Positions 1,516 through 6,411 of a stretch of DNA of 17,016 nt are shown piece after piece; the stretch's first letter is position 1, and the number at the start of each line of letters is the position of its first letter. The stretch covers positions 18,860 through 35,875 of the forward strand of contig DYHY01000012.1 in assembly GCA_020723935.1 (NCBI GenBank), read 5' to 3'. Below the pieces are notes generated by a model. It was not told the origin of the DNA. It worked only from the letters and a program-made list of their open reading frames with translations, and ran no database searches. Made by a program: the position numbers and the translations under genes. This stretch comes from Candidatus Micrarchaeum sp. (GTDB lineage Archaea; SpSt-1190; DYHY01).

Positions 1516-3195
1516 CTATTCATAATTCATCCAGCCCATGTTGGACTTGATGCCGCGGTACACGCGGAAGAACGAGTTGTAGGAGAACCAGCTCGCGCGG
1601 CGCAGGCGCGTGTCGAAGGTCTTTGGCACGTCGTTCCCGAAGAACTCCAGGACCGGCGTCATGCCCGCGAGGAACTTCCCCCTCCAGTCTATCGCCGACC
1701 TGTAGACGCCCGCATCCCCCCCTGCCTTGGGGTTGAACCAGTCGGAAAGGCCCTTGACGATGGAGGCCTTGGCCTGCGCCGGGGTCTTGCCCTTCTCCAT
1801 TTCCTCGGCGCCTATCTCCTCGGCGAGCCTGCTTATCTCCGCCTTCTCCTCGGCCGTGAGCGACCCCTTGGCCTTGAGCTCCTTGTACCTGTCCTTGCTC
1901 CTCTCGTCCTTGGTCTGGGCGATGCCCATCTCGGCGAGGTCCGAGTCGTTGTACCCGCCGTAGGTCTTCATTATCGTTGCGAAGTCGTTGTTCTGGAGCG
2001 TTAGCTTGCCCTTGAGCTTCCTCTTGTCGTCCTCGTGCATGACGCCGTACGTTATTACCGTGAAGCCGCGCACGAACTTGTTCCCCTGCAGCTCCGGGTT
2101 GTAGGACATCAGGAGCTGGATCGTTATGCACGGGATCCAGGGCTTCATCCTGTCCATGACTATCGGCCACTTCTGCTCGGGGTCGTAGTACATCTCCGTG
2201 ACGGTGTAGGCCATCGGGGCGAACTGCGGGAACTCCTCGGCGAAGATGCCGAACTGGGCGTCCATCTCCTCGTAGGGGATTATCATCTTCTCCGCCTCCT
2301 GGATGTTCCTCGTCGCCCACCTCATGTAGAGCTGCAGGTTCGCCCTCTGCTGGTTGAGGTTGTTGACGATCGACTCGTACGTGCGCTGCACGAAGGACTT
2401 GTATTCGATGCGCCAGTTGATATATTCCTGGACCTTGCGCTTGAGGTAGTTGGCCACCGCCGGGTTGAGCTCCTCGCTCTTCACGAACTCCTCGGCCTGC
2501 TTCTCCATGTCGGCCTTGACGGCGTCCAACCACTTCCTTTGGAAGTCGCCCTCAGACTCCCTGTCGCCCTTCTTGAGCCCGAGCAGCTCCGGCTTCTTCT
2601 CGTCGAGGCGGTAGAACCACGTGAGCGCGCTCCTGACGATCGGCACTTGGTGGGCGAGGGCCGACCAGCTCCTCGACGGGCCGCCGTAGTTGTCCACGAA
2701 CAGGCCCTTCACCTGCTCGGGGCTGTTGTTCTGGAACGCGTTCCTCTGCTCGCGGATCTTTTCGAGGTCGCTTTCCAGGTTGAGTATGACTGTCTTGAGG
2801 GTCTGGACAGTGGCCATCATCTCGCGCGCGTCCTTCCTCTGGAAGGACTGCTTGCCGAGCATGTCGCCCTGGACCCTGCTCATGGGCGAGAAGGCGATGC
2901 CCTCGCGCACCTTGATGTATTCCCACCACAGGCCCGTCGTCCCGCACATGTAGTCGGCTATCGTGTGGAAGATGGGCTCGGGGAGCGGCACGCCGAAGAT
3001 GAGCGCGTGGGGCTGCCATTGGGCGTTGTCCCAGGTGTTCCAGCGGCCCCAGTAGCCCCATTTCTTCGCGAGGGGGTTGCTCGGGCTCGCGGAATAGACC
3101 CGTCCCTTGAGAGGCCCTGTCCCGGAGTCGTAATACATCTTCTCCAGGAAATCGTCGAGAGTGACTCTGCCTTGCTTGGGACCTTCGTCAGCCAT
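1516..3195 (-). CDS. Unrecognised 559-residue Trp-rich, helix-rich protein
   Basis: I do not recognise this protein. It has 559 residues and no signal peptide or clear membrane span, so it is probably cytosolic or peripheral. Residues 45-100 are very aromatic, with five Trp between 46 and 60 and a WW pair at 90-91. Residues 121-155 and roughly 218-305 are charged, long-helix sequence with coiled-coil character. Residues 430-475 form another charged helical stretch (EERS/KELKAKGSLTAEEKAE). The C-terminus is aromatic again and ends NMGWMNYE. No Walker, Cys-pair or other catalytic motif is evident. A TATA-like box lies 31 bases before the ATG. Two coiled-coil genes lie directly upstream on the same strand, so a structural complex of the three is plausible. 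It ends in TAG, and codon use matches its neighbours. Confidence 0.9.
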   Translation of the reverse strand: MADEGPKQGRVTLDDFLEKMYYDSGTGPLKGRVYSASPSNPLAKKWGYWGRWNTWDNAQWQPHALIFGVPLPEPIFHTIADYMCGTTGLWWEYIKVREGIAFSPMSRVQGDMLGKQSFQRKDAREMMATVQTLKTVILNLESDLEKIREQRNAFQNNSPEQVKGLFVDNYGGPSRSWSALAHQVPIVRSALTWFYRLDEKKPELLGLKKGDRESEGDFQRKWLDAVKADMEKQAEEFVKSEELNPAVANYLKRKVQEYINWRIEYKSFVQRTYESIVNNLNQQRANLQLYMRWATRNIQEAEKMIIPYEEMDAQFGIFAEEFPQFAPMAYTVTEMYYDPEQKWPIVMDRMKPWIPCITIQLLMSYNPELQGNKFVRGFTVITYGVMHEDDKRKLKGKLTLQNNDFATIMKTYGGYNDSDLAEMGIAQTKDERSKDRYKELKAKGSLTAEEKAEISRLAEEIGAEEMEKGKTPAQAKASIVKGLSDWFNPKAGGDAGVYRSAIDWRGKFLAGMTPVLEFFGNDVPKTFDTRLRRASWFSYNSFFRVYRGIKSNMGWMNYE

Positions 3196-3222
3196 ATTGG
3201 CTAGAGTAATCCCTCCCTGGTG

Positions 3223-3230
3223 CTTAAATA
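3223..3230 (-). promoter_or_regulatory. TATA-like box of the 559-residue protein gene
   Basis: The minus strand reads TATTTAAG, preceded by a purine-rich CGAAAAAGG that could act as the TFB recognition element. It is centred 31 bases before the ATG at 3195. The gene therefore has its own promoter although two genes lie upstream on the same strand. Confidence 0.5.
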
Positions 3231-3274
3231 CCTTTTTCGGCCAAAACCGCGGACTGCCTTCCCTTTTGTCCGGC

Positions 3275-3703
3275 TCAGTCCTTCAGCGCCTCCAAAAGCG
3301 CCGGATTTACTTTGAGCGGCCTCCCCGCTAGCTCTAGGAGCGCCGCACCGTACCTCTCCTCCTGGCCGCCCCGGTCCTTGAGCGAGGAGATCTCGTCCTC
3401 GATGCGCGCGATCTTGGCGTCCGTCTGGGAGATGCGGTAGAAGATCTCGTCGAGGCGGCTCTCCAGGCCCTCGAACCTGTCGGCGATCGCCCGCGGATGG
3501 TCCTGCGTTATCGCCTTCTCGGCGCGCTCCAGGCGCTCCTTGAGCTTCTGGGTGTTCCCCGAAGCGCTGTGGGCGAGGACCTTTAGGTCCGCGCGCGTGA
3601 GCTCCAGCTCCTCGCGCTGCTTCGAAACCACCTCGGCGAGGCGCAGGACGAGCGTCGCAACCACCGCACCTCCCTTCTCGCCCGCTTCCCCTCCGTCGCC
3701 CAC
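3275..3703 (-). CDS. Short coiled-coil protein A (142 residues), likely paralogue of the gene upstream
   Basis: Function unknown. After a Gly/Glu-rich start, residues 14-110 are mostly heptad-like helix (KQREELELTRADLK, KLKERLERAEKA, FEGLESRLDEIFYRISQTDAKIARIEDEISSLK). This is followed by a linker and the C-terminal motif KVNPALLEALKD (131-142). The neighbouring upstream protein also ends in KVN followed by a matching amphipathic segment, and both share LRL-x-EV-x-x-K near the N-terminus (here 20-28). The start is a GTG at 3703, preceded by a good Shine-Dalgarno sequence GGAGGG (3713-3718, spacing 9). This supports the start and internal translation initiation in a transcript shared with the upstream gene, whose stop lies 18 bases away. 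It is probably a partner of the 559-residue protein. Confidence 0.8.
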   Translation of the reverse strand: MGDGGEAGEKGGAVVATLVLRLAEVVSKQREELELTRADLKVLAHSASGNTQKLKERLERAEKAITQDHPRAIADRFEGLESRLDEIFYRISQTDAKIARIEDEISSLKDRGGQEERYGAALLELAGRPLKVNPALLEALKD

Positions 3704-3712
3704 GTGCTTCTT

Positions 3713-3718
3713 CCCTCC
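3713..3718 (-). promoter_or_regulatory. Shine-Dalgarno sequence for coiled-coil protein A
   Basis: GGAGGG on the minus strand, 9 bases before the GTG at 3703. It decides this non-ATG start. It also shows that internal operon genes here can use Shine-Dalgarno initiation while first genes look leaderless. Confidence 0.6.
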
Positions 3719-3721
3719 GGA

Positions 3722-4072
3722 TTATTGCTCGAGGTGCTTGAGTATCCCCTGGTTGACCTTCGGGGACGCGGGCTGCTGCTGCTGTTGCTGCTGTTGCGCG
3801 GCCCTTGTCTCGCGCAGCTTGCTCTCGAGATCCGAGACGCGCGCGAGGAGGACCGCCTTCGTCGAGTCAAACTCGGACTTGAGGCCGTCCAGCTCCGCCT
3901 TGGCCGCGGACGCATCCGACGTCTTCCTGTCGAGGGCGCTTATCTGCGACTGGAGGCCGCCGAGGCGCTTGTTGAGCACCTCTATGAGCCTGAGCATGAA
4001 CTCGTTGAGTTCAATGTCCTGCTTCTGCTGCTGCTGGGCCTGCTGCATCTGCATCTGTCTTTGGTCTGCCAT
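3722..4072 (-). CDS. Short coiled-coil protein B (116 residues) with two poly-Gln tracts
   Basis: Function unknown. The N-terminus is rich in Gln and Met (residues 4-18). Then come LRLIEVLNK (27-35), a long heptad-like helix (38-91, including LKSEFDSTKAVLLARVSDLESKL), a run of eight Gln (93-100) and the C-terminal motif KVNQGILKHLEQ (105-116). The layout is the same as in coiled-coil protein A: an N-terminal LRL-x-EV helix, a coiled coil, a linker, then an extreme C-terminal KVN motif. The two are therefore probably diverged duplicates. The Gln run is encoded by a CAG/CAA triplet repeat and may vary in length. The ATG at 4072 is the first good start. A TATA-like box at 4166-4176 implies a leader of about 70 bases, longer than for other genes here. 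Confidence 0.8.
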   Translation of the reverse strand: MADQRQMQMQQAQQQQKQDIELNEFMLRLIEVLNKRLGGLQSQISALDRKTSDASAAKAELDGLKSEFDSTKAVLLARVSDLESKLRETRAAQQQQQQQQPASPKVNQGILKHLEQ

Positions 4073-4258: not shown

Positions 4259-4636
4259 ATGGAATTCTACGAGATAAGCGGCGACCTCGCCGACCTGGAG
4301 GCGGCGGTTCCCGGCTCCCTCGTCGCTTCCTTGGGGCGCAAGGACTTGGAGTTTGAGCCCAGGGGCGCGGGGCCGGCGGTGAAGCTCGTCCTCCCGCCGA
4401 CCGCCGGATACGACGCGGCCTAGAGCGAGATTGCAAAGGAGACATCCCCCTTCGTCCTAGTCGGCCTCGGGACGCGAAGGCCGGCCGAGTTCGGGATTTC
4501 CTACGGCCCGGAGCGCGACATTGGCCCGGCATCTTACGTCGTCTACAGGCCGGAGGGCAAGCCTTCTGCGGCGGAGATGGACACCTGCCTCAACCCCGGC
4601 CACTACCAAGTCGAGGTCTGCCACCTGCGCGAATAG
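4259..4636 (+). pseudogene. Unrecognised gene interrupted by an in-frame TAG (codon 55 of 125)
   Basis: Read from the ATG at 4259 the protein begins MEFYEISGDLADLEAAVPGS and reaches GYDAA at codon 54. It meets TAG at 4421-4423 and then continues in the same frame as SEIAKETSPFVLVGLGTRRP to a terminal TAG at 4634-4636. Third-position GC bias and normal-looking protein continue on both sides, so the two halves were probably one gene of about 124 residues. A single C-to-T change from CAG would explain the stop. A TATA-like TTTTAAATT (4201-4209) lies about 54 bases before the ATG. No family was recognised. Alternatives are a true short protein of 54 residues, readthrough, or a sequencing error. 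Confidence 0.45.
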
Positions 4637-5264: not shown

Positions 5265-5815
5265 ATGGCAACAAAAATATTCGAGTCATACGCATCCGCA
5301 GTTGATGCGTCTTACGAGGGCGCGGCGCGGACGGCTGTAGCGAAGGCGGCCGGACAGAACGTCAGGCACGCGGTCAACGTGAGGCTGGGCCCCGGGCGGG
5401 GGGAATACAGCACGCTCTACCCGAATTTCACGAAGGCCGATGGGGACGCGGGGCTCGTCCCTAACGCCCTGGTCGCGCAGACGGTCGGGAACATCGGCGA
5501 CTGGAAGGACGGCCTGGACCGGGAAGCCTTCACGGCTCTCGTCGGCGAGCTCTCCGGGAAGGGGCGTACTGGGAGGCGCCGGAGGGGGGCGACAGCCCCG
5601 AATTCGACATCCACGGCGGAGGCTTGGGCCAGCAGGTCCTCACCGAGCTCGCGGGGACGTTCGGCAGGAAATATCCGGCGCGGGCCCTCGCAGGCTACCG
5701 CTTCGGGCTAGACGCCGAGGACAGCGAGAGACTGATCGAGTTCCAGGATTACGTCCCGAGCAAGGCGGCCATGGTCAGGCTCGCGAAGGTCCTTGTCCAA
5801 GGCAAGGTCCGATAA
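5265..5815 (+). pseudogene. Unrecognised gene with one -1 frameshift (about 183 residues if restored)
   Basis: The protein starts MATKIFESYASAVDASYEGA and reads well to VGELSGKG near 5564. Beyond that the same frame becomes Arg-rich nonsense and stops at 5711. The -1 frame then takes over with AYWEAPEGGDSPEFDIHGGG and continues to VPSKAAMVRLAKVLVQGKVR, ending with TAA at 5813-5815. Adding one G to the GGGG run at 5561-5564 makes a continuous 183-residue protein. No signal peptide or membrane span is seen and no family was recognised. It converges with the gene ending at 5818, with two bases between the stops. Pseudogene, programmed -1 slippage at G-GGG and sequencing error cannot be separated from one sequence. 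Confidence 0.55.
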
Positions 5816-5817
5816 GG

Positions 5818-6390
5818 TCAGTCGGGCAGCCTCAGCCGCTCGGGCGTCGTCTTATTCACGATGTCCATGAAGCGCCTCGCAAGGGTCCCGCCTCGCGCGT
5901 TCACGCCGAAGACGTCCCTGGAATTTATGTAAAAGTCCACGTGCTCGCCCGTGACGATCGAGAAGGTCTGCGCGGTGACGCCCGCCCCCAGGGCCGTCGT
6001 GAAGCTCACGTTCTCCAGCTCCTTCCTGAGGCGCGCGGCGAGGGGCAGGGCGATGAATATGCGCATCACGTAGTTGTCCATCCCGATCCTCCCGACCCTC
6101 GCGACGCTCGCAGCCTTGATCTCGCCCGCGGGGAGGGCTATCTCCTTTGTCTCCTCCTCGGCCCCGGCGAAGCGCAGGACGACGCCGTCGTCGCTTGCTA
6201 CCATCTCGCCTATCTCGGCCGAGTTGAAAGAATAGATCTTCATGGAGATTTCCTGGGGGACTCCCTGGGGGACTCCCTGCGATGCGCTCTCCGGAGCCGC
6301 GGATTGCCCCGCGTTCCGCGCCGGATGCTCCGGACCCGCTACCGCCACCGAAGGTCCGCCCGTTTCCTCGGCTTCCTCGTTTTGCTTCAT
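5818..6390 (-). CDS. Unrecognised protein with disordered N-terminus (190 residues)
   Basis: I do not recognise the family. From the ATG at 6390, residues 1-48 are low complexity (Glu, Ala, Pro, Gly, Gln) and probably disordered. They include a tandem GVPQGVPQ encoded by a 12-base direct repeat (6253-6276). Residues 50-190 look folded and alternate short strands and helices (MKIYSFNSAEIGEMVASDDG, VMRIFIALPLAARLRKELEN, HVDFYINSRDVFGVNARGG). There are no Cys pairs, nucleotide-binding loops or membrane spans. A GTG at 6402 could also start it, but the TATA-like box at 6412-6420 is centred 26 bases from the ATG at 6390, which fits a leaderless start there. An internal ATG (6243) would give only the folded domain. 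It is convergent with the broken gene ending at 5815. Confidence 0.75.
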   Translation of the reverse strand: MKQNEEAEETGGPSVAVAGPEHPARNAGQSAAPESASQGVPQGVPQEISMKIYSFNSAEIGEMVASDDGVVLRFAGAEEETKEIALPAGEIKAASVARVGRIGMDNYVMRIFIALPLAARLRKELENVSFTTALGAGVTAQTFSIVTGEHVDFYINSRDVFGVNARGGTLARRFMDIVNKTTPERLRLPD

Positions 6391-6411
6391 CAGGCTTATC
6401 ACGCCCCCCCG

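Follow-up and report, generated by a model that had tools for sequence, protein, structure and literature searches.

An undescribed protein family of small-genome archaea and the lineage-specific pair of short coiled-coil genes beside one of its members

Three consecutive genes on the minus strand of an archaeal contig raise the question of whether they work as one module or owe their proximity to something else. The window analyzed here is a whole stretch of 17,016 nucleotides of Candidatus Micrarchaeum sp. (contig DYHY01000012.1, positions 18,860 to 35,875), from an assembly of 1.14 Mb that is 91% complete. The original prediction, made from the letters alone, read the three genes as two paralogous coiled-coil proteins (P0002 and P0003) that might dock through their C-termini onto a large tryptophan-rich protein, here referred to as F559. 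All three open reading frames are present on the minus strand where they had been placed (Table 1), with gaps of 18 bases from P0003 to P0002 and 79 bases from P0002 to F559. As had been supposed, the three proteins fall outside known families, in that searches of profile libraries (Pfam, NCBIfam) gave no match above cut-off.

Table 1. Positions in the window of the three genes and of the sequence features discussed in the text
Feature	Position	Strand	Basis and remarks
F559 (P0001), 559-aa protein	1516..3195	-	ORF, ATG start
Second pair-correlated F559 stretch, residues 494-515	1651..1716	-	Alignment; low model confidence
Pair-correlated F559 stretch, within residues 424-466	1798..1926	-	Alignment; found only in the two genomes with the pair
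TATA-box-like TATTTAAG, candidate F559 promoter in the 79-base gap	3223..3230	-	28-35 bases upstream of the ATG
P0002, 142-aa coiled-coil protein	3275..3703	-	ORF, GTG start; C-terminal LKVNPALLEALKD
P0003, 116-aa Gln-rich coiled-coil protein	3722..4072	-	ORF, ATG start; C-terminal PKVNQGILKHLEQ

The short pair and its tail motif

Both short proteins carry the N-terminal LRL-x-EV-x-x-K motif (LRLIEVLNK, LRLAEVVSK), a weak similarity that was equalled in 50 of 2,000 shuffles, and both show the 3.5-residue hydrophobic periodicity of the coiled-coil middle that had been proposed for them; P0003 contains 22 Gln. The K-V-N-x-x-[IL]-L-x-x-L motif makes up exactly the final 12 residues of P0002 and P0003 (KVNQGILKHLEQ, KVNPALLEALKD). 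A C-terminal match as high was found in 246 of 200,000 random pairs of C-termini drawn from the fetched loci and in 4 of 100,000 letter shuffles, and is unlikely by chance. The claim of paralogy fared less well. BLASTP of P0002 against P0003 returned zero alignments, and the best ungapped match over the whole length was at chance level. Because nothing aligns between the two proteins beyond the short motifs, the word paralogous is a guess, and common descent is a possibility. Judged by sequence, they are two small coiled-coil proteins with a common tail motif. Neither had a match at the curated cut-offs of Pfam and NCBIfam, where only coiled-coil matches below cut-off were seen (for example SMC/Rad50 and DUF4404).

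Among the ten genomes of the class (Altiarchaeota), the pair was detectable only in this genome (G000) and in G001, the sole other genome of the same archaeal family. The P0002 orthologue in G001 was found with an E-value of 1.5e-5; directly before it lies a counterpart of P0003 that is weak by sequence alone (E 0.185), so placed that the two genes again stand in tandem, end to start, in the order seen in G000. Sequence and profile searches found no pair in the remaining eight class genomes, and a two-row P0002 profile gave no convincing member in 21 other genomes. Weak P0002 matches elsewhere (E 3.5e-4 to 0.7) were rejected as orthologues, being mostly far longer or generic coiled-coil frames. 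The tails of the G001 pair are EPSISTDLLKRLE and EPVKISSSLLEQFY, compared with SPKVNQGILKHLEQ and RPLKVNPALLEALKD in G000. The KVN ending expected of orthologues is thus retained as a motif, [VI]-[NS]-x-x-[LI]-L-x-x-[LF], but in an altered form from which the literal KVN has gone (G001 tails SISTDLLKRLE and VKISSSLLEQFY). As a tandem pair, P0002 and P0003 are specific to this lineage, and the motif at their tails is conserved.

Adjacency of the pair and F559

In G001 the pair is found on contig C3, where it abuts a dihydrouridine-synthase-like gene, and F559 is found on contig C25 beside a 187-aa gene. As far as a single informative genome can test it, the genes are therefore separate in relatives, contrary to the proposed three-gene module, and the position of the short genes beside F559 is probably a local arrangement, a feature of one archaeal family. 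In both genomes the pair stands downstream of the gene at window positions 5818-6402 (minus strand) or its orthologue in G001 (L041:7199-7606), which encodes a conserved protein without a Pfam family, and the G001 stretch with the pair also carries orthologues of several further window genes, as read by eye.

These arrangements would arise if F559 and the short genes were neighbours by chance, the pair being a two-gene unit with another job and F559 being transcribed separately beside it. We give this reading a probability close to even. It agrees with the observation that the pair keeps the same upstream gene in both genomes while F559 moves, and with the presence of a TATA-like box before F559 and of a Shine-Dalgarno-like site (GGAGGGAAG) preceding the GTG start of P0002; however, the comparison draws on one genome, and a 79-base gap is still compatible with co-transcription. 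The best 8-mer before F559 has 2 mismatches to TTTAWATA. Because about 6% of random window positions (238 of 4,000) match this consensus equally well or better, the box is suggestive only, and as such would fit a separate transcription of F559.

The module as originally proposed, with both short proteins docked on F559 via C-terminal peptides as parts of a single scaffold system of this lineage, seems unlikely to us. The three genes are adjacent, on one strand and with short gaps, and the tail motif is retained in G001, yet there the pair is distant from F559, eight other class genomes have no detected pair, and F559 is preceded by a promoter-like box of its own. In other lineages too F559 has small companions, as many as three in a row, that share a C-terminal helix, which would favour docking, but they have no detectable homology to the pair. 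Two extra segments of F559 are restricted to the two genomes that carry the pair (Table 1). Because of this restriction the short pair may be a local adaptor of F559; the link is a correlation over two genomes only, which are too few. The pair may or may not bind F559.

Family, distribution and predicted structure of F559

F559 was described as Trp-rich, and with Trp at 18 of its 559 positions (3.2%, against a family median of 1.7%) it is. No family match was found in Pfam (best E 0.07), NCBIfam (best E 0.096) or PHROGs (none), and a profile search of PDB sequences returned nothing. A search with the single sequence recovered F559 in all ten class genomes, including a large one of 3.8 Mb. An 11-member profile extended the family to 51 of 394 archaeal genomes and a 43-member profile to 93 of 394 at E 0.01, of which 89 were clear (best E 7e-25 or lower) and four marginal (9e-4 to 9e-3). 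The 89 genomes are the ten Altiarchaeota and otherwise only genomes of 0.5-2.1 Mb. Those outside the class are apparently DPANN lineages, a label that we infer because of their small genomes and their relationship. The gene is essentially single-copy: in most genomes with two matches, a contig end cuts the gene in two or the second match is a short additional fragment.

In a tree of 63 F559 members, the nine class members used formed one clade (support 1.0), and families f1 and f2 were likewise clades, as expected under vertical descent. A viral or plasmid origin was considered and set aside: tblastn of F559 in phages and of one F559 relative in plasmids gave no match, and no relatives were found in viral contigs. 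These sequence comparisons make F559 the Altiarchaeota representative of a family that is undescribed, single-copy, for the most part inherited vertically and spread across small-genome archaea.

The long helices ascribed to the large protein were borne out by AlphaFold2 models, which are mostly long helices. Mean pLDDT rose from 59.7 with 8 sequences to 72.8 with 43 sequences (pTM 0.55, with an arm pLDDT of about 90). The predicted fold comprises a small mixed alpha/beta base (helix 73-84, strand 92-102, strands 328-337 and 353-365) and an arm of roughly 7-9 nm, as estimated from helix length, formed by an antiparallel coiled-coil hairpin (helices 107-155 and 245-304) with a helical sub-domain in between. 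Residues 1-60, predicted to be disordered, and about 469-526 were modelled without confidence. Among 63 relatives, L251 and W261 are invariant, and K254 (97%) and F194 (98%) nearly so; judging from this list of conserved residues, F559 appears to have no recognised catalytic motif, as had been noted.

Foldseek searches returned no match below E 0.001, either for the first F559 model against the PDB or for F559 against viral models. Fold comparison gave only helical hairpins, with Z of 7.3 at most; it was the arm that matched. The arm (residues about 103-306) resembles EmrA, F-BAR/BAR domains, the dynein stalk and the PI3K inter-SH2 coiled coil (Z 6-7), values that are in the range expected for any helical hairpin, and these proteins have no sequence similarity to F559 and leave its base unmatched. 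The newness of F559 lies in the lack of a matching known family or fold; the evidence is for a new protein family and does not extend to a new kind of system. The short pair alone is of small interest and the large protein is the finding; the original prediction pointed at a real unknown, for reasons that were partly wrong.

Gene neighbours and possible roles of F559

In 34 of the 54 loci fetched from outside the class, the gene directly downstream of F559, on its own strand, encodes a xylose-isomerase-like TIM barrel; several of the loci are cut by contig ends. PF01261 was found in one member of these neighbours; it is a domain of the gene 3' of F559 outside Altiarchaeota and not F559's own. 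The next gene is often nucleotidyltransferase-like, and PF01909 was found in 11 scanned F559 neighbours. Searches of the ten class genomes gave no TIM barrel in nine, G000 among them, and only two short weak matches in G003. Because nine of ten class genomes have no detected TIM barrel, F559 is independent of it.

The most constant companion of F559 is a family of proteins of 160-200 aa, here referred to as 187-like, which was present in 80 of 394 archaeal genomes at E 0.01. At E below about 3e-5 it was found in 78 genomes, namely 76 of the 89 with F559 and 2 of the 305 others, leaving 13 F559 genomes without a 187-like match. Genomes that hold both families all belong to the class or are small, and the partner occurs alone almost never. 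Fisher's test of the co-occurrence, which ignores shared ancestry, gave 9e-65, a value that mostly reflects shared history because the two families follow the same lineages. Ten F559 loci have two tandem 187-like genes upstream in divergent orientation, often with a gene for a small membrane protein of about 110 aa between F559 and the tandem genes. The 187-like gene abuts F559 tail to tail in G001. In G000 it is not adjacent to F559 but about 14 kb away on the same contig (C3 5839-6402, L031; profile match C3:5908-6393, E 6.1e-36). About 1 kb from this gene, two ORFs have class-III-signal-peptide-like starts (SQISIEV, TQLSLEV), an observation made on the window's contig at L031:3761-4890 (minus strand) and L031:5839-6402 (plus strand).

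We also considered that the 187-aa protein might be the F559 base without its coiled-coil insert. This was rejected, as profile-profile comparison aligned only 18-20 columns at E 0.05-0.17 (E-values of a single comparison), with the same outcome when the insert was cut out. A weak profile match of the 187-like family to PH1819 (PDB 2een; 48 residues, E 0.059) was not significant.

The reading we prefer, held tentatively and at somewhat less than even probability, is that F559 is the cytoplasmic scaffold of a membrane-linked assembly, the family being single-copy and apparently DPANN-wide and the short pair probably a local matter. In the modelled fold the base would hold the coiled-coil hairpin arm, and F559 would work in an assembly with its 187-like partner, the physical assembly being suggested by conserved gene order. 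Outside Altiarchaeota, the TIM-barrel protein and the nucleotidyltransferase would join this assembly, and some lineages would add the small membrane protein. We favour this reading for three reasons: the confident part of the F559 model is the coiled-coil arm, in one lineage group the gene of a small membrane protein stands between F559 and its partner genes, and some lineages have genes for pilin-like proteins or a pilus platform near F559. The occasional linkage to pilin-like or type IV pilus platform genes faintly hints that F559 might sit under a surface structure.

Some neighbours fit roles other than a scaffold, among them translation-linked genes, histone and DUF373. In one genome group, NFACT and CRS1/YhbY genes lie just upstream of F559, or a coiled-coil gene lies between F559 and the TIM barrel. 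In f2 Altiarchaeota, F559 is followed by genes for histone, DUF373 and a winged-helix-like protein and is divergent from genes for pilin-like and secreted proteins. The divergent block is conserved (L020-L026) and consists of a short pilin-like protein, a second short membrane protein and two secreted proteins of 350-440 aa and roughly 1000 aa; block members sent to Pfam gave no match.

F559 could instead, together with the TIM barrel and the nucleotidyltransferase, be a core component of an enzyme complex related to nucleotides or RNA, and not a structural scaffold. The tight gene order of F559 with these two enzyme-like families and the NFACT and CRS1/YhbY neighbours of one genome group speak for such a complex, but Altiarchaeota retain F559 without a detectable TIM barrel, its invariant polar residues are few and its modelled arm is a plain coiled coil, and we regard the idea as improbable.

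We doubt even more that F559 serves type IV pilus-like machinery as an accessory part in the cytoplasm. G001, the f2 Altiarchaeota and some other loci do have pilin-like genes in the vicinity of F559. T2SSF was found in four scanned neighbours, and three to five loci have TadC/CpaF-like genes close by, with CpaF-like ones in up to five. However, CpaF/TadC-like pilus genes are missing within about 8 kb from most of the 65 F559 loci, and the window holds no pilus gene. Also in favour of such a part is the study of Ca. Nanohaloarchaeum antarcticus, which reported DPANN coiled-coil proteins (CCPs), NAR1_03220 and NAR1_01690 among them, beside type IV pilus-like loci, kept only where pilus or flagella genes adjoin, and likened them to viral attachment proteins (PMC11291902). 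Like F559, the CCPs are DPANN-specific coiled-coil proteins with one or two copies per genome; pilus genes adjoin the CCPs, whereas some F559 loci lie near TadC/CpaF-like genes and most do not within about 8 kb. Compared by description only, this shortage of pilus genes argues against F559 being one of these CCPs.

Another genome group has small proteins encoded near F559 and divergent from it; there are between one and three of them, they are disordered, and they share a C-terminal helix such as DQNEEIIDLLYDIRDKL. Four loci (L100, L101, L105 and L110) have three in tandem, divergent from F559, with a DQNEEIIDLLYDIRDKL-like C-terminal helix motif and also a shared short N-terminal helix, and elsewhere some loci encode one such protein with a similar end. 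Homology of P0002 and P0003 to these helix-tailed proteins was looked for and was not detectable. A wider proposal would see one undescribed cellular machine in F559, its 187-like and nucleotidyltransferase partners, the TIM barrel and a varying set of small helix-tailed proteins. The machine would be characteristic of DPANN archaea and would date back to the ancestor that DPANN share with Altiarchaeota; P0002 and P0003 would here take the small helix-tailed role, docking by their C-terminal motif on the lineage-specific F559 segments. We consider this proposal a long shot.

In a survey of protein families in archaea, no block of families that occur together was shared by every DPANN lineage while being missing from the remaining archaea (PMC8204110). 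The pair of F559 and the 187-like family comes close to a DPANN-common block in our sample, where 76 of 394 genomes hold both. No described DPANN cluster of this make-up was found in the literature, in a search largely confined to openly available papers. Should F559 prove central to DPANN cells, it would be a clue to the physical features that these archaea have in common, and the occurrence of both families in Altiarchaeota bears on the debated membership of Altiarchaeota in DPANN.

An Rfam search of the window found no RNA. On the plus strand at window positions 4259-4636, an ORF of about 125 codons has one in-frame TAG near 4421-4423 and then stays open for about 70 codons. It had no clear homologue in five relatives. 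Possible explanations are that it is a pseudogene, that the sequence contains an error or that the codon is read through. Also on the plus strand, the 148-aa ORF at 5265-5815, which starts with MATKIFESYASAVDASYEG, seems to continue in another frame (5624-5815), as if frameshifted.
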